Source of the DNA: Eunapius fragilis
Lineage: Eukaryota > Porifera > Demospongiae > Spongillida > Spongillidae
Assembly: GCA_963681505.1 (NCBI GenBank)
Contig: OY811973.1
Span: forward strand, 13,704,237-13,768,236
DNA: 64,000 nt
Reading direction: 5' to 3'
The translations under genes were made by a program, and so were the position numbers. This document shows positions 29,226-49,490 of this stretch, piece by piece. Positions within the stretch are counted from its first letter, which is position 1; each line of letters opens with the position of its first letter. The notes beneath the pieces were generated by a model that was given only the letters and a program-made list of their open reading frames with translations, was not told the origin of the DNA and ran no database searches.

Positions 29226-29870
29226 ATGGCGGCGGAGAAAATAACTACCATCACATCCAAGTTCATGACTTCTAAATGGCTACAACAGCAAAATGCGCAA
29301 AATGTAGTATTCTCTTGCGAGTATTCAGGAAGCGATTTACAAATCGTATTTAATAGCGATACCAGTGAATTCGAACAATTGTTCAGGGCGTTAGTGTTCC
29401 AGCCCAGTCCTAAAACCATCTTCTCCTCACTGGTTATTAAGTGCAGAGTTGGACTCGAGCACACTGGATCTCAGAACACAACCATTTCTTTTCTTATCGG
29501 TAACAACGGTGGTTCGGCCGTTGGTTTCCAACTTACTTACGGCTTGGCGTTGTCTAACAGACCGTATCGCTCCATTGAAGGCAACTCTGGAAGGACTCTC
29601 ACCGATATTCTACCATCACAAGAGGGAAACACCCTACAAAATAATAAACTTTCGGGCTACCCTCGCTTTTACGACATGACGTTCTATCTAAGCAAGGATA
29701 AAGCTGTTGGAATATGCTCCTCGTCACTAGATGAAGGACACAGCATCATAACGACGTATTCTAAGTGCCCAAAACTTGGCCAGGACCTCTTCTTGCAAGT
29801 TCACAGAGAGAGCCGCACTGCATCGTACACCCTCAACTTTGTACAAGTGGCAGTCAACACATTAGGGTGA
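29226..29870 (+). CDS. unrecognised intronless protein, paralogue 1 of 3 (214 aa)
   Basis: Single-exon frame of 214 residues. I do not recognise the family. It has no signal peptide or membrane segment, so it is probably cytosolic. Landmarks shared with 33562-34203 and 48840-49490: an N-terminal FMTSKWL, LVIKCRVGLEHTG, VGFQL, PYRSIEG, YDMTF, the strongly conserved VGICSSSLDEGH and a C-terminal LNFVQVAV. Alternating hydrophobic residues suggest a beta-rich, possibly jelly-roll or lectin-like fold; that is inference. AATAAA signals follow at 30165 and 30185. Paralogy, matching length and conserved motifs argue that it is a real gene. Confidence 0.8.
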   Translation: MAAEKITTITSKFMTSKWLQQQNAQNVVFSCEYSGSDLQIVFNSDTSEFEQLFRALVFQPSPKTIFSSLVIKCRVGLEHTGSQNTTISFLIGNNGGSAVGFQLTYGLALSNRPYRSIEGNSGRTLTDILPSQEGNTLQNNKLSGYPRFYDMTFYLSKDKAVGICSSSLDEGHSIITTYSKCPKLGQDLFLQVHRESRTASYTLNFVQVAVNTLG

Positions 29871-33561: not shown

Positions 33562-34203
33562 TCACTCTAACGTGCTAACATCTACTTCAACGAAGTTGAT
33601 GGTGTACTTCGAGGAACTTCTTCCTCGGTACGCCCACAGGAATATCTCATTACTTGTATCCAGCGTGTTCGAATACGTGGTATTCACCATGTGTCCCGCA
33701 TCAAGGGAAGAAGAGCAAATCCCAACAACATCGTCTTCTGTTATACTGAATGTCATGTCGTAAACACTAGGGTTCATCCTAGAACTGGGAACGTTCTCCG
33801 CCCTACGGACGATAGGATTCATAACGTTACCAGACTCTCCCTCTGCAGGTAAATATGGAAACCTGTCTCCTGAAGAGTAGCTGTACATCAACTGAAAGCC
33901 AACGTTCCAATCCTCGTCACCAATAAAGAAAAAAATGGAATCCTGAGGTCCCGTGTGGATGAGTCCAACTCGGCACTTTATGACGAGATTGCGATAATCC
34001 CTTGCAGATCTGAGTACCCTGGCCTTAAACAAGTATTCGTTATCTCTAGCATCAGTTGAAAATACTATTTGGTTATCGTTTGTGTTTGGCATATCGATGT
34101 TGCAACCAAACCAGACATTATTCCTTTGCGTGTTGCTATCCACCAACCACTGCGGAGTCATGAGAACGTAATTGCGATTCTTCACTTTCGTCAATCCTGC
34201 CAT
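33562..34203 (-). CDS. unrecognised intronless protein, paralogue 2 of 3 (213 aa)
   Basis: Single-exon frame on the minus strand. I chose the ATG at 34203 (MAGLTKVKNRNYVLMTPQWL) because it aligns with the starts of the two paralogues and gives a matching length. An upstream ATG at 34233 would leave almost no 5' UTR after the TATATAA box at 34264-34258. Shared motifs: LVIKCRVGLIHTGPQ, VGFQL, PYLPAEGESG, YDMTF, VGICSSSLDAGHM, INFVEVDVSTL. It is closest to paralogue 1, in opposite orientation 3.7 kb away. Function unknown. Confidence 0.8.
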   Translation of the reverse strand: MAGLTKVKNRNYVLMTPQWLVDSNTQRNNVWFGCNIDMPNTNDNQIVFSTDARDNEYLFKARVLRSARDYRNLVIKCRVGLIHTGPQDSIFFFIGDEDWNVGFQLMYSYSSGDRFPYLPAEGESGNVMNPIVRRAENVPSSRMNPSVYDMTFSITEDDVVGICSSSLDAGHMVNTTYSNTLDTSNEIFLWAYRGRSSSKYTINFVEVDVSTLE

Positions 34204-34257
34204 AGCTCTTGCAATAGTCCTAAACGTTAGCATGCGCTGAGACAAAGATTGCGCGTC

Positions 34258-37489: not shown

Positions 37490-38778
37490 GCATTGCACCC
37501 CACTATAGGGCTATGTTCAGCTTTCCATAGATCTCTGTCAAAATCTTTGGCTTCTGCCCGGAATTCCTAAGCCAAAGGACAGGCATGAGGCCAAGTGGGA
37601 GAAAACTTGCCTGGCCAGCTCCCATAGCTCTCTACCGCGAGAGGGGTGCATTTCCACCCAAGCATGTGACACTTGGGGTCATTAGCCTGGTGCTTCCTCT
37701 GCTCTGCCAGTAGTGCAGCTGTTCCAGGTGTGACACTTGCTTCCTGAAGTGACACTGGTGTGAGAGGAGATGTCACTGTAATGTCAAAAGCAGTCAGTAT
37801 TCCATCTGACCAATTGCTCACTAAAGCGTCCACGGGATGAGACCTATAAAGGTCAGGGGTAAGTGTGCTGCCTGCTTCAACCTTTACACTAAGGTTCACC
37901 TTGTGGCAAAAGTCTACAAATATATTAGTACCACATCACCACCTCTCGTCTGCACAACAATACATGGTGCCCCAACGGGTCCAAAGCTATTTCAGGACAA
38001 AATAGACAGCAGGAGGAAGCCCTTGTGGTTTCTAAACCCAGCCACCATGAAATAGGTGTGCGGAATTTGCTAGGATCAAAATGTGTACCAGGTTCACCTG
38101 AAGGAAGGACTGAGACCCAAGAAGTGGCCAAAGAAGCAGAGGCAGAGAGGAGGCGAGCTTTGTTTGCTGGAGAAGATAAGTCATACAAATTGCTAAAAGA
38201 CAAGCTATTCAGCTTATGGGAGAGAGATCTCTGCGAGGGAGGAGACTCAATGGGAGATTCTGGAGAGATGGCATCTGAAGAAGAGACTAAGCTGTTGAAG
38301 AGATTCATCAGGTGATGGTTATCTGTGGTGGCAAAGCTACAGTAGCGGCTCGCATATCCGCACTTTTAACACGTCGCACATCCGCACAATTGAACAAACT
38401 TTTAGCATTCATAGCAAACCCTATCGATCTCTATATAACGATATTCACTGTACATGAAAGCTAAAAGTTTGTTCAATTGTCTTTTGAACATCATTATTTG
38501 TGCGGATGTGCGAGGTGTTAAAAGTGCGGATATGCGAGCCGCTACTGTAGATGAACAAAAATAAAAGCAGAGAGAGCGAAGGCCCAAACCCCCGAGCCTT
38601 AGGCTTAGTTGAGACTGGCACCACGCAGCCTCAGAGAGATGTATAGAGAAGCACTTCGAAAAGCAACTTCTAACATTGGAGTCCATTATCTACAAAGAAT
38701 CAGCAGCCATACTTGGGGGGGGGGGGGGGGGGGGGGTTGACCTGGCTAGGTGCACTATCTTACAAAAGCCACTGCACA
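37490..38778 (-). pseudogene. non-LTR retrotransposon, split by the CACTG transposon
   Basis: The minus strand carries VRSCFSKCFSIHLSEAAWCQ, LSLRLGGLGLRSL, FSNLYDLSSPANKARLLSAS, the zinc finger CLFCPEIALDPLGHHVLLC, LTPDLYRSHPVDALVSNW and AFDITVTSPLTPVSLQEA, then the C-terminal KCHMLGWKCTPLAVESYG. Upstream coding sequence is found at 47118-47240, on the far side of the 8.3-kb transposon. Removing that transposon and one CA restores the motif LCSGFCKIVHLARSTPP in frame. A Tc1-like MITE (38340-38547) and a G tract also interrupt it. Confidence 0.8.
38340..38547. mobile_element. Tc1/mariner-like MITE with TA target duplication
   Basis: Inverted ends CAGTAGCGGCTCGCATATCC with TA on both sides (38338-38339, 38548-38549). 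The inverted repeat extends inwards for about 70 bp, with an 18-20-bp insertion in the right arm. TA duplication plus a CAGT terminus is typical of Tc1/mariner. It interrupts the retrotransposon frame. Confidence 0.85.
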
Positions 38779-38945
38779 CACTGTTAAAAAAAAGGTGTTA
38801 CCGCAACACACTTCGGGGTGTTCGTATGGATATTTAAAAATGACACCCCCTGGGGTGTAGTGGTAACCGCTTAGGAGTGTTACAGCTAACACCTCTGAAG
38901 TGTAGCCAGTACACTCTATTGGGTGTTGACAGAGGTAACAATATC
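38779..38945. repeat. left terminal and subterminal repeats of the CACTG transposon
   Basis: After CACTGTTAAAAAAAA come GGTGTTACC, GGGGTGTTCG, GGGGTGTAG, GGAGTGTTACAG, AACACCTC and GGGTGTTGAC within 170 bp. Confidence 0.8.
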
Positions 38946-39264
38946 TCGTATATTTACCGTAAATTGATGATCCCAACATAAATTGATATTAATAAACTAT
39001 ACAACAGGTCCAATTGATTTTAATAAAATGATGATAAATAAATACAACATGAAGAACACATATATATACGAAAGTTAGAAGTCTTTGCACGCCATGACGC
39101 TCGAGCAGGTTATTTCTCTGGTTCAGACACTAAACAAAATAAGAGAACACATAAAGGTCAGGTTACAGTACAAGACATGTCTGACCTTAAATCTTGGCCT
39201 TCGCGAAGGAGTATACTGTAACAACGCCGTCGACCGCACTGACAGCGAAATACATTGTTCTGGC

Positions 39265-39455
39265 TTACCTCGATAGCTTGGTAGGGCGTGTCCTTTTAGT
39301 CTTGCGAACTTTGTAAAATAAAATAGGGCGTATTTGAACGCGTGAAAGGGAACTGACGTGTATGGCTTACCCCGATAGCTTGGTAAGGCATGTCCTTTTA
39401 GTCTTGCGGACTTTGTAAAATAAAATAGGGCGTATTTGAACGCGTGAAAAGGAAC
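39265..39455. repeat. 100-bp tandem duplication
   Basis: 39265-39355 and 39366-39455 share GATAGCTTGGTA.GGC.TGTC, TAGTCTTGCG and AGGGCGTATTTGAACGCGTG. It lies inside the CACTG transposon. Confidence 0.85.
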
Positions 39456-40567
39456 TTACATGTACCTCGATTCCTCACGCGTATAGTGAGGTAGCGTGCG
39501 CTGTAGTAGCTGGGTAGCACGGTAGTAGAATTTTCCTTAGCGTATATAGCCGAGAAGTGGATTTGTACAGGCATTCCGAACTGCTGTACTAGTATCCCTA
39601 CCAAGAACAACTCGATGCACTCTCTTCAAGGCACCCAACTGTTGTTAATTGAACGACGCATCGCTAAATGTTTGAAGAAAACAACTGGGTTTAATGTCTA
39701 ATGTCCTGGGCGTGCTCCGCGGTGCACGTTTGTACACCGCGGGGTACGCAAAACAAAGTTTTTTGCATTCCGCCGTTTCAGCATTCTAGTGAAGTTTGAC
39801 TGTTATGCCACGTTGTATAAGTCCTTATCAGTTTGGGCTGAAGCTTTGAAGGCCTAGTACCTTTCGCTGCTAATACAACAAGTCGCCACAGCAGAGGTAC
39901 ACTGTACGGCGAGTGTACGCGGTAATTGAAAAATAATAATAACGTACGTACCGGAAGTTTCGCGTACCTCCGCTGTGACAAGTTGCTGTAAGAGTCGCGA
40001 ACGGTATTAGGCGTTCAATGCTTCGGCCCAAGCAGATAAGGACTTATACAACGTGGCGTAACAGTCAAACTTCACTAGAATGCTGAACCGGCGGAATGCA
40101 AAAAACTTTGTTTTGCGTACCCCGCGGTGTACAAACGTGCACCGCGGAGCACGCCCAGGACATTAGACATTAAACCAAGCAAAACATCACCATGCCTATT
40201 ACCTTTCACGAACACTTTATACACAACCAGTTCTCCACACTTCTGAATCTCTCCTGATTTAATGATCTCGTGCGTTACGGCTGTGATATTACGGACGTAA
40301 CGGAGGTGATTTCCCAAAGGGTCCGATTCAGACATTATATGTGCGGTCTGAATCACCTGGATTATTATAACCATTGCTAGTTACTATTAATTTGAACTTA
40401 ACAAACGATACACGGCCGGTTTTCACCTCTGAATCGCTGCTTGATCACGTGACCACGATTGGTGTCCGAGAAAGCGAGCCATCGTGTAAGCTTGGATTCG
40501 AGTTCAGAAACAAGTATTTGCGTCATCTGAAGGCGGCTGGTTACGAAGCATACCTGGAGTAAAATAG
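39456..40567. other. transposon interior without a resolved gene
   Basis: Apart from the foldback at 39688-40176, minus-strand open stretches at 40374-40177 (TAVTHEIIKSGEIQKCGELV) and 39610-39470 (QFGMPVQIHFSAIYAKENS, ending in a donor-like GAG|GTACATG) could be two exons of one minus-strand gene split by the foldback. A plus-strand open stretch (40374-40562) overlaps the first. I could not decide between them. Confidence 0.3.
39688..40176. mobile_element. foldback element inside the CACTG transposon
   Basis: Outer arms of about 140 bp (39688-39828 and 40037-40176, starting GGTTTAATGTCTAATGTCC) are almost perfect inverted repeats. The interior continues as a weaker inverted repeat. The arms include the palindromic GTGCACG/CCGCGG words. 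Confidence 0.85.
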
Positions 40568-42483
40568 GCGAAGAAACAAACACAGCCGTGTTAGTGCCTC
40601 CACATGTACAGATTGTGGTTCAACCTCCTTTTGCCACACGGGGTGAATCCTGCTCTAGTAAGTAGCAGTGTAATAAGATTTTGGACATATTTTTTTGCGA
40701 ATTTATAGGCCTAGGCGACGATTTCGAAGGTGCTGTCGTCGAGAATACTCTACCGGCTGTAGTCAGTTCCGAAAGAGAAGAGACTCTACCAGCTGTAGTC
40801 AGTTCCGAAAGAGAAGAGAGTGCTGTTGGTAAGATAACCATTGCACTTAAGTAAACGTATACTATTATGGTAGATTGTAAGTGCTACTTTTATATTCAGA
40901 TGGCCCTTACCCAGTTATTCATTTCATGTCAAGGTTGATGTTTGCACTGGTCTCCAAGGCATAATTTCATTAATTTCAATACACCTAGGTTTTGCAGAGG
41001 TTTTCAATACACGGAGGTTTTGCATACTCGAACTCTGGGGCCTTACAAGTATCTACTTAGATTCCGGATGGCTCAGTTTTCACCACAGCAACACAAGGAG
41101 GTTTTGGCTTGCATTAACTCATTTAACTTCTCTGGCCATGCAGCTCTCTCAGGAGATATCTCTAAGTACTACTATAAATCATTTGTGGGGCGTGATTTCA
41201 AAACGTTGGCACAACTAGCACACTGTGTTTCCACCATTGTTAACACCTAGTGAAGCAGACGTATGGTTGGCTCTTTCAAAGGTATGTGTTACACATTTAT
41301 GTATGTGTCTTCATTCGTATCATCTGTCTCAGGTGTTCAAGCGGGTATAATTGTGAGAAGTTTACATCATGAAGTCTGTGTTGTTTTGAATTTGTTCGAG
41401 CCACTGATAGACACTGTCCGGAGCTGAGGGAAAAGCTCAAAATTCATCTCCTCCTTCATCTACCTGATCACATGCTTTAGTTTGGACCTGCATCAGGGTT
41501 TAACACCAAAAGGTAAGACTTAATTCTGGCTCAGGGTCTGTGACATTGTTAATCATTCTTTAGATGTGAGAGCTATAATGGTGCGATTAGGTCTCGTAAC
41601 ATATACGGCAATAAATATGCTCCGAGCAAAGACATTGCCAACAGTTTTGCAATCCAGGAGAGCATACAATTTTTCTGTTCAGGAGGTCGTTTCGATCCAT
41701 CAGAAATGCAGTGAGTATTGGTTTTGCCATTTATTTTTAATAATGACTCCTCATCAGGTGTGGTGATGGCCTGCTACAGTTATATCAGTCAGCAGAAGTT
41801 GTTGAGTTCTTGACAGGAAGGTTACCTACAAGTGATACAGCCATCTGTAGTCATGGGGCACTTCGTAAGGTATTCAGTTGGCTTTCGTTTTCACTGTGTT
41901 GCTACATTATGGTGATACTCTGCAACCTTAGATCAGTGTATGTAAGCCAACTAAAGTTGGGATCTGTGTTGCTTCAAGTACATGGACTTGGGGAGATGTC
42001 TGTCACAACTCTGATAGATGAACATATGTTGACTACTGACCTGCAAAGTCATGTCACCTGGGGCAAAGCAACAGTGACAGCTGAATGTGACACTGTTAAT
42101 GTGGGTGACTTTGTGCTCAATAATGACAGAGCTGGGTCTCCAGTAAGTCCTCCAGACAGTGTATTCATTATTACATGTGCAGTACTATAGATGGAGGTAG
42201 GGATCCTACTGAGCTAACAGCACCCGCTACTACATATGGATCGTGAAATGGCCAGTGGACAGCCATGCCTCAATGAGTTTGATTGCCAGCTTCTGACGCT
42301 TACAAAGGTCCTTCAGGTCATTTCTCCTACAGCCATCGTTCGTGCAGTTTCAGTGGTTACTCAACATGTGTTGTGGATTTCATGCGTATTGCTACCAGGA
42401 CAGAACGACAGGAAGCAACTGAAAACAAACTGCGTTTAAAACATGACTGGAGTAATACTATGTTTTGTTATAATGTTTACTGA
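40568..42483 (+). pseudogene. transposon-associated protein gene, multi-exon, degenerate
   Basis: Exons by splice sites: 40568-40642, 40711-40829, 40900-40933, 40989-41281, 41333-41512, 41564-41710, 41758-41869 and later exons to 42483. Landmarks: ACINSFNFSGHAALSGDI, YYYKSFVGRDFKTLAQLA, ELREKLKIHLLLHLPDHML, FGPASGFNT, then CESYNGAIRSRNIYGNKYAP and SKDIANSFAIQESIQFFCSG. These recall the C-terminal half of large proteins carried by CACTA/KDZ-like elements of fungi and animals; this is from memory, not a search. A single-base shift near 41240, one or more shifts in the 41333 exon and an in-frame TAG near 41479 break the frame. A 39-nt duplication in exon 40711-40829 gives two copies of LPAVVSSEREE. 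Confidence 0.6.
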
Positions 42484-43887
42484 ATTGCAAATGATGTTTT
42501 TATCATAAAAGCGAAAAACAAAAATATATATATGAATGCGCTCAATAAGGGATACGGTATACTTTGAACTTCGTTGATGATTCATCAGCTATACGGACAT
42601 GAATCAGGTGCGGTTGATAATGATTCACCCGAGATAATTTAAGAAGCGTATCACCGCGCTGCCAAAAGGATCTGATTCTCCCGCGTGCTAATAGAGACGT
42701 TACGCAAGCGTTAACAGCTCTGATTCGTTGTCAAAAAACTGGCCGTGTATTAAAGGTCACGGAGAACGTGCTATTAAGGGTCACGCATGCGCAATGAAAA
42801 ATACCCTGGGGTCGAGGCAGCGAAAAGGGACCTAGCGCATATTTTTTCAAGTTTTCAAAATATTTCATATTCAGAGAGACACCTATGTCCTCTACAACTT
42901 CTTTCATACACACTGGAAATTAGCCTGTCCATCATGGGGTTACAGGGTCCCGAATTTTTAATTACGCGTACATTTTTATTACACATGTGGACTTTGATGC
43001 TCCTTCCTGGAAATTTTTATAATATGCGCTAGGTCCCTTTTTGCTGCCTCGACCCCATTTACTCACTAGAAGTTCAATGTTTTTATCAACATGAACACAA
43101 AACATGGATACATATTAATACTGATAAAAAGTTGATCCAATTATGACATCATGCTGGTGCCAAGCTTAAGCATGCATGATATGCCAAATGTGGCACCATT
43201 TCAGATATTCATACAATATGGCACATGTGGAATCAAAATGCTACCCTGCTATTGACTGACCCATCACATGATCTTCATGGCAACCAGTCTGGTCCAAGTC
43301 ACATGATCCCCTCTATGGCAACCTTTGGTAATGGTCCCCACAGCCATTTCCTCCTCACTCGCTAAAACCTTGTCTGCATCAGGAGTCTTCTCAGTTGTCT
43401 CTTCCTTTACAAACATGTCTTCCTTACCCTCAGTTCATCCTACATGTATACCTCAGACTACTTGCCTCTCACTATAGTTACTTAATTGCCTCTCCCTACT
43501 TGTCAACACGCTATGTAGTGCTACACATCGATAATAATTATATTCTCATCCATAAAAATAAACAATAGATGGAGCAACAGAAAACTAAGGGCAACCCAGA
43601 TGCGCTTTTATAAGAGTTACAAGGAAGAGCAGATAAAGAAGTGGCTAGCAACTACGCACTAACGACCAACATATGCAATCAATCTGTGTACATACTTTCA
43701 CATTACCACGACTCAAAAAGCTTTTGGCAGTGTGGTATAACCTCAAAGTTTGATACACATGTATTTGTTCAGCAGTTACAATAGTAACATGAATCAAAAT
43801 GACAAAAAGGAATAAGCACTTAGTCAGAGTACAGAAAAAAATGATTAGTTACTATAGTCAATCCAGGCATACAGCAAAAATGATCAG
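42484..43887. other. transposon interior, non-coding apart from a MITE
   Basis: No exon supported outside the MITE at 42809-43060. Confidence 0.45.
42809..43060. mobile_element. MITE with 37-bp terminal inverted repeats
   Basis: Ends TGGGGTCGAGGCAGCGAAAA, then GGGACCTAGCGCATATT, inverted at the right end. Partial copies occur at 56188-56253 (one end) and 60955-61057 (interior), so it is a dispersed family. Confidence 0.85.
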
Positions 43888-44399
43888 TTACAATAGTCGA
43901 TCCAGTGTTGACTTGACACAAACAGCTAGGGTAGGTATTTTCTGACTATCCTGGATGTCTAGAATATAGAATTGTCCAAATGTAAGGAATGCTAGACTGG
44001 ATTTTGGATACTCTATATTAAAGGCAAAGTATGCTCCATACAGAGACTTGATAGCCTCCCAGCAAGTTGGCTTCTCTACCAGGATCTCTTGTTCGGTAAC
44101 AACAAAGATTTGTGGGGCAGTAGAGTCATGATTCACTATAAGTATGTAGGGCCAGTTTTGTCCCACAGTTTGTACAGCCTGTTCCAGTTGGGTACAAATC
44201 TGTCAGGAAAATGTTTTTTGACACCTACAGATGTTTGCTCACTCCCCTCCTCCTCCACCTCTAAGCCCCTCAGTATTTAGAAAACTCACAGACATTCAGA
44301 GCACAACGTTGATACTTTTGCTCGCATATTTCTTGGGCGTAAGTAAGGCATTGAGTAGCTCCAAAGAGTGCAGTTCGCTCAGTGTATTTGCTGTCCAAA

Positions 44400-44443
<44 letters not shown>

Positions 44444-44990
44444 TACACACACACATGCACACACACATGTGCGCACACACACACAAATTTGAACATGTGT
44501 AAACAAACAGAAACAGTCACTACTTGTAAATCACAAGTGTTTATGTGCATGCATTGTTATTTATACTGAAAAGTTTAGCTGGCATTTAGAAAAATTCTAA
44601 ATCATTTTATCAAGACCCTATATAATTTTAAAGATGGTGTTTATTATATGCCAATATACCAGAGCTATCTAACTTTAATAAAATGAAATGTGTCAAAGCC
44701 ATAATATCTTTTCGTATCTGTACATAACTACAACTACCCCTTTTCACAGTCATTATTCACAGCAAAGATTATCTGTATAAACATGTAAAAATAGCCTCTT
44801 TACAATTACCTTCCTCATTTGTGCAATTCTGTATCTCACTGAGCTGAGCTTTAAGTATAGCAGAAATATTCTCCCGACTTTCAGCTTCCTTCTTTGACAG
44901 TCTGTACACTTTAGGAATCATCATTTTCCATCTCTCACTAGCCACTTCCTCATTGTCAGTGCCAACTATAGCCACCAGTTCCCTCCAAAG
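43888..44990 (-). CDS. opposite-strand gene inside the CACTG transposon
   Basis: Three exons by splice sites: 44990-44810 (LWRELVAIVGTDNEEVASER ... AILKAQLSEIQNCTNEEG), about 44390-44305 (NTLSELHSLELLNALLTP; the frame here is chosen by phase and another is possible) and 44199-43888 (TQLEQAVQTVGQNWPYILIV, AFNIEYPKSSLAFLTF, stop at 43888). The final exon has the NIEYP motif that I associate with transposon-borne uncharacterised proteins in sponges and fish. The start codon and first exon are unknown. A (CA)n tract fills part of the first intron. It sits between the two plus-strand coding blocks. Confidence 0.5.
44400..44486. repeat. (CA)n microsatellite
   Basis: Interrupted CA tract in the intron of the minus-strand gene. 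Confidence 0.9.
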
Positions 44991-45486
44991 CTGAAGGGTA
45001 CAAAACACTAAATGAAGCTAAAGACTGTCCATCATTAATATTTAATGCATGTTCAGAACTCGTTTTGAATGACAAATACATGTATGTGCATGAACATAAA
45101 ATATTTGTAAATTCATTACTACTATCACCCGGTCCGCATCTTCCTAATCAGATTGTGAAGGGAGGATCCTCTCCCACCTTTGATTACCATACCCCCCCCC
45201 CTCCCCATTTTCTTACACCTCCCCAATCCAATTCTCCTACACTGTACCTCCCTAATCAAAACTATCATCCTCCTCACCCTCCTTCCCCCAGCCTCCTCCC
45301 CCTTACACTTCCTGTATCATCCTCACAAGCATCTCCATCATCCTTATAGTACACGCTCTCTTGTCCTCCCCCTGCTTACACAACAAAACTAGGTAACCCC
45401 AATTGAGTTAATGAGACGTGTTTTTCATGAGTGAAAAAAAAAAAACGATGTCATCGTTATATAAACACATATATTTTTAATTGCAG

Positions 45487-46398
45487 GGCTAAATGGGTCA
45501 CCTTTGCTGGTCAGAAGTATCAAACTATGTGTATTGTTATTCTAGGAGTGGATGAAGACTACCCTATGTTTGGGCAAGTTAAGGAACTGTACATGATTGA
45601 TACCACAAAACCTATGGCAATTGTGACTGTAATGTCAACGCTTGCATTCAACGAGCACTACCATGGCTATACATTGAGTTATTCAACCTCTACCAGGGCA
45701 GGGCCGTAGAGAGGGGGGGGTAAGCAGGGTATGTTACCCCGGGCCTCAGGGTGTAAAGGGGCCTCCGGGTCCAGAAAATATTATTCCTACAATTGGGGGG
45801 TTGAAGGAATCATCATCAAATGTGATGCTTCAGCGGCGGATCCGGAGGGGGGGGGGGGGGGGGGGGGGGTAACTCAGTGCACGTGTCTCCCCCCCCCCCC
45901 CCCCCCCCCCTTCCAAATATAAATTCATAACTTTTTGGGCTGCATTTTATAATAATAGCCGCATGCTTGCGCCACCTATTGATACCCGTACGCATTAACT
46001 CTACTAGTGTACTATATCCTGGGCCCCCTGATATGCGATCATACCCCCCTTCCCCCACTTTTTATATTGGGCTAGAAACCGACAGCACCCACCACCCCCC
46101 CCCCCCCCCCCCGCTTTTCGTATCGGGCCAGAAGCCAAAAGCACCCCCCTCCCCAGCCACACCCACCATCCGTGCCCCACCCCCCCTATAACCTGGATCC
46201 GCGGCTATGCTTGGCATGGGTGAGGGGCCTCATTAACTTAAATACCCCGGGCCTCCGTGCCGCTCTCAACGGGCCTCTACCAGGGTAATATCTCTCAAAA
46301 CATTGTACAGTCCTTTTCCACTCCATGCTAGAAGATGTCCAAATGGCGACAGATTGGTGGTAATGAAGCACCATATATCTGGAACAGTTCAAAGTTAA
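45487..46398 (+). pseudogene. C-terminal exon of a transposon gene, interrupted by an insertion
   Basis: After acceptor TTGCAG the exon reads AKWVTFAGQKYQTMCIVILG, VDEDYPMFGQVKELYMID and LAFNEHYHGYTLSYSTSTR to 45698, then resumes at 46286 as SLKTLYSPFPLHARRCPNG, DRLVVMKHHISGTVQS and stops at 46396-46398. A 575-bp insertion bounded by the 12-bp repeat CCTCTACCAGGG separates the halves; omitting it keeps the frame. It belongs either to the gene at 40568-42483 or to a second plus-strand gene of the same element. Confidence 0.55.
45699..46273. mobile_element. hAT-like non-autonomous insertion in the C-terminal exon
   Basis: It begins at or next to CAGGGCCGTAGAGAGGGG and ends with a weak inverse (CCGCTCTCAACGGGC). 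Direct repeats CCTCTACCAGGG (45687-45698, 46274-46285) flank it. The interior is G- and C-tract rich (45846-45910, 46095-46112). The CAGGGCCGTAG start is shared with the MITE at 54098. Confidence 0.6.
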
Positions 46399-46904
46399 AG
46401 CGTACATATACTATCCTGTATGAACTGTATTGACTGTAACAGGTGATAGACATGATTTTATTGTGTTGGTACCAGATGATTACTATGCTCCTCCTTGAGC
46501 TACATGTGATAACATATGAAAAACTTGTGTCCAACAATATATATATGTTCCCATGTAATTTTACTATTAGGGTGTGGTCTAACTAGAATCCAGATGGAGT
46601 TTTAACACTGTGACGTGGTGCGCATACATGAACCACTGCACGCAAGCCTTCTTAAACACAGCTTTGTTGTATACCGTTATTGCACGTTGTAAAAGCGACG
46701 CTAACGTGTACAAACGCACTACCCACACCGACGAACGCCCGCCAAGGCCAGCGTTTAGTACTGTAAGTCGTGTGCGTGCGTACATACCTTAAAGATAACG
46801 TTCGGCTTTAAAGTTCAATCCAACTACGAAGTCTGTCACAGCTGCCATAGCATCTTGCCAACCACGCCCTCAATCCGTCAAACAAACAAGGCTGGGAACG
46901 CGTT
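46399..46904. other. transposon interior, CpG-containing
   Basis: No exon identified; 46640-46870 is rich in CG and could be a promoter for a minus-strand transcript, but nothing shows this directly. Confidence 0.35.
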
Positions 46905-47117
46905 CACTGGGGTGTAATGCGGTAAATCAGTGCTATGACAACACACCTTTTAAATGTCTTAACACTCCATTATTGGTGGGATACGGTGCTAACACTCTCG
47001 CGTAGTCTGCCAACACCCATAGGTGTAAGCTGAACACCCTAGTGTGTTATCATAGCACCCCATGGGCTGTAACACCCCTCAGACCTAACACCCCTCGGGC
47101 CTTTTTTTTTAACAGTG
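46905..47117. repeat. right terminal and subterminal repeats of the CACTG transposon
   Basis: AACACC/AACACT words recur (AACACACC, TTAACACTCC, CTAACACTC, CAACACCC, GAACACCC, GTAACACCCC, CTAACACCCC) up to CCTTTTTTTTTTAACAGTG. Confidence 0.8.
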
Positions 47118-47345
47118 CAGACGCAGCATGTTAAAAGCCACCTGAGGATCAACAACTGAAACATCCTCCAGCGTTGTGTGCTGTGAATGTGTGCGTGTGT
47201 GGTTTCCACTGAGTTCCAGATGTTGTTTTATGAATTCATATGCGGAATTGATATGTTTATGTATTTCAATGGAAACCCAGAAGCCCCATAAATTATGTTT
47301 GTAGGTACTCCACAAACATAAGTGTCAACCCCATGCATGCATGCA
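47118..47345 (-). pseudogene. upstream half of the split retrotransposon, plus a dispersed repeat
   Basis: Minus strand 47215-47120 reads HTTLEDVSVVDPQVAFNMLR, the retrotransposon sequence immediately upstream of the transposon insertion. Sequence at 47236-47345 is an inverted copy of the block at 37057-37170 (AATTATGTTTGTAGGTACTC, CCATGCATGCATGCAGGG). Confidence 0.65.
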
Positions 47346-48839: not shown

Positions 48840-49490
48840 CTAATCATGAGGCGATACAGTCACTTCGATGAAGTTGATCTTGTATGTTTCTACCACGAAC
48901 CCCCGATAAGCTTCCAAGAAGAGGCCATTTGCATCGTAATTCAAATCTTTTGAGTACTGATGCATCACCATGTGGCCACCGTTAAGAGCTGACGTACAAG
49001 TTCCAATACTTTCGCCAGTTTCAAATGTTATGTTGAAAACGCGTGGCCAAATAGCTGGAGAAACGCCCGGCGCGTTCGTAATGGTTGGTCTCCCATTCCC
49101 CAACAGTCGCTTAGCTGCTCCTTCAATCGGCCTATAGGGTCCGGTCTGGCTGTAAGCGACAAGATCAATAAATTGGAATCCCCAAGCATTCTTTCCATCG
49201 CTGATAGTTAATGATAGGGGGTCCGGCCTGGGAGGTACCACTGGTATTACTGGGGGCAATGGTGGTCCTGTGTACACCATTGCAATCCGTATTGCCACAG
49301 TGTATTTGCGTGTAGAATCAAGTACACCAGCGTCCAAAAGCTTCACCTTGAATAGCCTTTCGTAGTCCTGAGCGTCGGTGTGGAGTGTTAGTACATTCTG
49401 ATTTGTTTCGGCGGAGTTGATGCTAACACCAAACTTGGCATTTGCTTGAAGCCATTCTGAAGTCATCAACTGGTAGTATACGGATGCCAT
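48840..49490 (-). CDS. unrecognised intronless protein, paralogue 3 of 3 (216 aa)
   Basis: Single-exon minus-strand frame starting MASVYYQLMTSEWLQANAKF. It shares with the copies at 29.2 and 33.6 kb the MTSEWL start, a VYTG turn, WGFQF, GPYRPIEG, FNITF, IGTCTSALNGGHM and INFIEVTVS. It is the most diverged member and carries a proline insert (PPLPPVIPVVPPRPDP) at the HTG turn. The cysteine of the central motif and the C-terminal strand are kept, so the fold is probably conserved. TATA-like sequence lies about 30-45 bp upstream of the ATG. Function unknown. Confidence 0.78.
   Translation of the reverse strand: MASVYYQLMTSEWLQANAKFGVSINSAETNQNVLTLHTDAQDYERLFKVKLLDAGVLDSTRKYTVAIRIAMVYTGPPLPPVIPVVPPRPDPLSLTISDGKNAWGFQFIDLVAYSQTGPYRPIEGAAKRLLGNGRPTITNAPGVSPAIWPRVFNITFETGESIGTCTSALNGGHMVMHQYSKDLNYDANGLFLEAYRGFVVETYKINFIEVTVSPHD

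Follow-up and report, generated by a model that had tools for sequence, protein, structure and literature searches.

Plant Spm/En elements of the CACTA type produce two proteins (TnpA and TnpD), carry subterminal repeat arrays, duplicate 3 bp of target DNA and leave abundant internally deleted copies. RAG1/RAG2 and HzTransib duplicate 5 bp, and chromatin reading resides in the PHD of RAG2. Here we describe an insertion in a 64,000-nucleotide stretch (the window) of contig OY811973.1 from the sponge Eunapius fragilis, which a first-pass annotation had read as a complete, 8.3-kb CACTA-like transposon. We assign a probability of roughly 0.88 to its descent from an animal cut-and-paste transposon of the CACTA type (CMCT clade), as a non-autonomous derivative that moves by the mechanism proposed below. 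The evidence comprises directly observed ends, 2-bp duplications, empty sites, many near-identical copies, the loss of the catalytic exons by deletion, and two longer, two-gene copies.

The class itself is already known. Animal CACTA elements (TRC) that duplicate 2 bp have been on record since 2006, among them a 9.2-kb element from Aedes (PMC1636069), so the earlier remark that such elements are little described is only partly right. In the portion of that article available to us, SmTRC1 and its Tribolium and Aedes relatives share with the sponge element an animal CACTA kinship, 2-bp duplications, a Transposase_21 core with CXXC and truncated copies (DeMarco 2006, PMC1636069). However, the authors propose a CCC core at the ends for animals, where the sponge ends begin CAC, and the same portion describes spliced products of one unit, with neither an opposed SAMD3-like gene nor a BAH tail. 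Spongebob (EnSpm-4N1_HM, 5.8 kb) of Hydra is likewise an animal CACTA family with 2-bp duplications, but its ends are CCC and, in the accessible text, its transposase was left unresolved by its authors (PMC4298943). The available part of a further account gives the CMCT clade as D, D and E with C(2)C and H(3–4)H, CA..TG ends and 2–5 bp duplications, and Zisupton, from which the sponge family differs, as duplicating 8 bp (PMC12730594). As far as their accessible portions go, published accounts of animal CACTA elements do not resolve a two-gene element to the present level, and that literature yielded no counterpart of the CACTG ends, the BAH-like tail or the SAMD3-like partner.

Fusing the flanks of the insertion with a single CA restored a minus-strand host frame, ...NMLRLCSGFCKIVHLARSTPP, which runs across LCSGFCKIVHLARSTPP. 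When the joined flanks were searched against the genome (218.9 Mb, 24 contigs), 20 places were found: the two flanks in the window itself and 18 element-free sites that cross the junction at 76–100% identity. The best of these (G000:C3:13617507-13617602) is 100% identical over 96 bases, with one CA. Window positions 38779–47117 are thus a single transposon insertion with a CA duplication. The coordinates, termini, duplication and host-frame argument of the first-pass annotation all held; at the 3' end its terminus was correct, and the T run contains nine T rather than ten. The subterminal arrays it had noted were also borne out: the outer 300 bp contain six (5') and seven (3') GGTGT/ACACC words, whereas in 2,000 base shuffles the counts averaged 0.3 and 0.6 and never exceeded 5 and 4.

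The suggested search for further copies, empty sites and duplications was positive, and neither outcome that would have refuted the annotation, an absence of further copies or copies ending elsewhere, occurred. With up to two mismatches, the 22-bp 5' end was found at 72 genome places, compared with one for a reversed control. Our comparison set consisted of the window copy, 19 loci (L009–L027) and a full copy assembled from L045 and L012; L025, whose 5' end lies outside the fetched stretch, and L028, which belongs to another subfamily, were excluded from the end count. Both ends are common to 20 copies, and 18 of these have a perfect 2-bp direct repeat, a pyrimidine–purine step in 17. Substitutions were counted over the ~4,704 bp of the base element, using the best BLAST segment for each of three parts and leaving length differences uncounted. 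On this measure the window copy shows none against L009, L010, L011 and L013, one against L012, 7–16 against L014–L018 and 28–59 against L019–L027. These counts point to a very recent burst of non-autonomous copies, and the substitution-free copies at five loci imply such recent movement that the process may still be under way. The window copy has recently moved yet is protein-dead; as copies without catalytic exons have spread very recently, a source acting in trans is implied.

Relative to the full-length copies, the window copy lacks a 4.48-kb stretch that carries the catalytic exons and both gene starts. The stretch is retained in L027 (C12:5687206-5696364) and in a copy on C3 (C3:2712161-2721477), 9.2 and 9.3 kb long; deleted sisters measure 4.4–5.3 kb, except that L019 reaches 9.3 kb owing to another insertion. 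From open frames we placed nine exons in the C3 copy; with GT-AG at all eight introns, together they yield an 830-residue transposase, while L027 contains one premature stop. The catalytic residues D281, D374 and E636 lie in the full-length protein, none of them in the window copy; both D columns are conserved in 18/18 aligned members and E in 16/18. Between the second D and E lie C394xxC397 and H612xxxH616. Short copies match transposase codons 722–830 only. Genome-wide, where 54 of 319 candidates were scored so that counts are lower bounds, only L027 and the C3 locus match over the whole length. Partial matches lie at C4:7496467-7498661 (79–91%, residues 1–246 unmatched), C20:2171066-2172467 and C4:7976281-7976825, and relatives of 25–49% identity occupy at least ~10 further places. 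"Complete" therefore applies to the ends of the window element and not to its content, and 8.3 kb is the size of the insertion and not the element's own length. The transposase that the first-pass annotation thought unusual or lost is lost here and present elsewhere in the genome.

The label "CACTA-like" stands up well, given the motifs of the parent transposase, the CA..TG ends and the 2-bp duplications. The motif set, ends (CAC..GTG) and duplication range are all shared with the CMCT clade as given in the available part of PMC12730594, and by its motif set we class the element, at clade level, as animal CACTA-type (CMCT clade). Plant CACTA elements in the strict sense have a CACTA core and 3-bp duplications, whereas the sponge ends read CACTG and 2 bp are duplicated; TRC agrees in the 2-bp duplication and not in its CCC core; and the 5-bp duplication of Transib and ProtoRAG is absent. 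KDZ (PF18758) gave no hit in the genome, nor in 14 control genomes. Plant Spm/En and the sponge family have in common a pair of proteins, encoded in the latter by opposed genes, as well as subterminal repeat arrays and plentiful copies with internal deletions.

The second gene is arranged head to head with the transposase gene, the two starts lying ~90 bp apart. Matches to it in the window, L009, L019 and L025 all fall in its last exons. Two opposed genes had been read in the window; this arrangement is true of the family but untrue of the window reading, because the plus-strand exons at 40.6–42.4 kb lie in a nested foreign element. Relatives of the second gene include P0019 (Ephydatia muelleri, 81% over 81 residues) and the unnamed P0020 and P0021.

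Sister copies lack 3 kb that the window copy carries at 39695–42747, a miniature inverted-repeat transposable element (MITE) followed by the 2.5-kb nested element with its own ends. The latter (CAC..GTG ends, TA duplications, broken EnSpm-like exons) has been recently active. Other copies exist in the genome, three of which match the 2,508 bp searched at 100% identity, and TA flanks occur in all 10 copies examined, the window copy included. Its exons include HLLLHLPDHML(stop)FGPASGFNTKR, with an in-frame stop, and CESYNGAIRSRN. Since these exons can be aligned with the part of the outer family's transposase profile around the catalytic E (probability 82.9), the nested element is probably a broken CMCT-type element in its own right; the H(3)H..E stretch was matched and the D, D half was unseen. 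It may represent an animal equivalent of the fungal ESTA group, which combines an EnSpm-like transposase with TA duplications.

Our proposed mechanism is as follows. Transposase from a full-length copy would bind the shared ends in trans, perhaps at the GGTGT-rich subterminal arrays via C2H2-like fingers, and would cleave at the CAC/GTG termini, using a DD..E site that resembles that of RAG1. Insertion would then proceed with a 2-bp stagger, mostly at pyrimidine–purine steps. The BAH-like tail may tether the transposase to chromatin, and the divergent SAMD3-like protein may act as an assembly or regulatory partner, like TnpA in plant Spm. In addition, a TTAA MITE and a second, TA-targeting element with CMCT-like transposase remnants of its own have inserted into the window copy.

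Some observations weigh against this account. The flanks are mismatched (CA/TG) in two of the 20 copies (L009 and the first copy in L012), and the exon 3 acceptor is unconserved in L027. The full-length sponge transposase gave no Transposase_21 (PF02992) hit in a Pfam search; 7 of 18 members gave one at E up to 1, the best scoring 20.2 against a cut-off of 28.6 bits, and the C2H2 hit is likewise below its cut-off (20.4 against 25.2 bits). The fold match to RAG1 comes from the predicted model of a relative, P0001; the matches listed by a sequence-profile search of solved structures were all zinc-finger proteins and included no RAG1, so that the resemblance to RAG1 is one of fold. For BAH, Pfam gave 0/12 members and the PDB profile one hit, a PPR protein. 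Pfam found no SAM in the accessory exon searched or in its Dysidea relative P0018. At one distant transposase locus, L065, the 3.4 kb examined to one side contains no accessory exon.

In one alternative, the 8.3-kb copy would be autonomous in its own right and the exons at 40.6–46.4 kb would encode a transposase that escaped recognition; open frames on both strands and the recent movement of the family speak for this. We consider it extremely unlikely: the plus-strand exons, one of them with an in-frame stop, belong to the 2.5-kb family, which moves separately and makes TA duplications of its own; the remaining exons represent the 3' portions of two genes, the 5' portions of which were seen in longer copies alone; a 575-bp insertion interrupts the last exon; and sisters without the 3-kb block spread all the same. 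A Transib or ProtoRAG-type element of the RAG1 lineage would suit the top fold match, in which RAG1 precedes Transib, and CAC ends with an A tract resemble a recombination signal. Yet the duplications are 2 bp and not 5 bp, Transposase_21 and DUF4218 are the commonest Pfam hits among members, though weak, and the solved structures listed for the accessory profile include no RAG chain, which makes that origin improbable.

The SAMD3-like gene could instead be a captured host gene with no role in transposition, to which we give somewhat less than even odds. Gene capture is common in CACTA elements, P0018 (Dysidea avara, 34% identity) is named "sterile alpha motif domain-containing protein 3-like" by NCBI, and at L065 no such gene was seen beside the transposase in 3.4 kb on one side. 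However, at L064, where the transposase is ~31% identical, accessory-like exons follow ~1.4 kb downstream on the same strand in collinear order and are the best extra-family hits among 3,518 open reading frames (ORFs) of 12 sources (E 6.6e-6 and 0.097), so that the pairing was seen at one of two distant loci. There are also weak hints of SAM sequence joined to transposase: P0016, a transposase relative from Chrysoperla, has a faint SAM_1 stretch (E 0.016, below cut-off), and P0013 a 34-residue stretch resembling the accessory N-terminus (pairwise E 0.001). The predicted model of P0018 was unusable (predicted local distance difference test score, pLDDT, 38.5).

Returning to the CMCT reading, we note that P0001, a relative of the parent enzyme, has a predicted fold resembling that of the antibody-gene recombinase RAG1. 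Two parts of the element are possibly new, namely the BAH-like tail and the SAMD3-like partner. A still-moving animal lineage that combines a RAG1-like transposase, a fused BAH chromatin reader and a dedicated SAMD3-like partner is conceivable, and we regard it as less likely than not. If true, it would mean that a RAG1-fold recombinase had been paired with histone reading a second time and independently, through a fused tail rather than the PHD of RAG2, and would explain some animal SAMD3-like genes as transposon genes. A RAG1-level fold match with a fused BAH-like tail would open the chromatin-reading origin of RAG-type recombinases outside jawed vertebrates.

Table 1 Features of the insertion and its surroundings, in window coordinates
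Feature	Position	Strand	Remarks
Target duplication CA, left	38777..38778	none	
Whole insertion: internally deleted non-autonomous CACTA-type element with nested elements	38779..47117	+	
5' terminal repeat CACTGTTAAAAAAAAGG	38779..38795	+	
5' subterminal GGTGT/ACACC words	38779..39078	none	6 vs 0.3 expected
Nested MITE, 216-nt inverted arms, TTAA duplications	39695..40169	none	site empty in six sister copies compared
Nested foreign element CACAACC..GGCCGTG, TA duplications, broken transposase exons (HLLLH..CESYNG)	40222..42747	+	
~250-bp palindromic insertion, 37-nt arms	42807..43057	none	left arm also in sister copies compared
Accessory gene, last exon region	43891..44235	-	residues 388-494
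Accessory gene, exon remnant	44282..44395	-	residues 355-392
Accessory gene, exon remnant	44778..44990	-	residues 301-371
Deletion scar	45410..45411	none	4.48 kb of L027 (3848-8330) missing
Last transposase exon, first part	45485..45697	+	codons 723-793; BAH-like tail
~575-bp nested insertion splitting tail exon	45698..46274	none	in L009-L018, not L019-L027
Last transposase exon, remainder	46264..46395	+	codons 787-830
3' subterminal ACACC/GGTGT words	46818..47117	none	7 vs 0.6 expected
3' terminal repeat CCTTTTTTTTTAACAGTG	47100..47117	-	
Target duplication CA, right	47118..47119	none	

The tail exon (45431–45709) gave a weak Pfam DUF6859 hit (16.1 bits, where the cut-off is 27.1; E 0.012), and the 575-bp insertion within the last transposase exon has a hAT-like CAGGG start and a duplicated CCTCTACCAGGG context. 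At L009 (C10:5854297) and L012 (C3:2727313) an apparent extra TG stands between the 3' end and the CA duplication, as though the element had taken two bases of a previous target with it. A second short subfamily has a 5' end 80–82% identical (for example C4:7848967, C9:4248023 and C10:1735531 in G000); pairing of end matches suggests a length of ~4.4–4.5 kb, and the examined part of its member L028 has no transposase or accessory match. At L012/L045 (C3:2712161-2727313), a deleted and a full-length family copy lie ~490 bp apart, both in a similar palindromic repeat containing AGAATGGCTCGAGCCATTCT. Around the insertion, three similar ORFs of 214–227 residues (29226–29870, plus; 33562–34245 and 48840–49490, minus) form a small family with an INFVEV/LNFVQV-like end.
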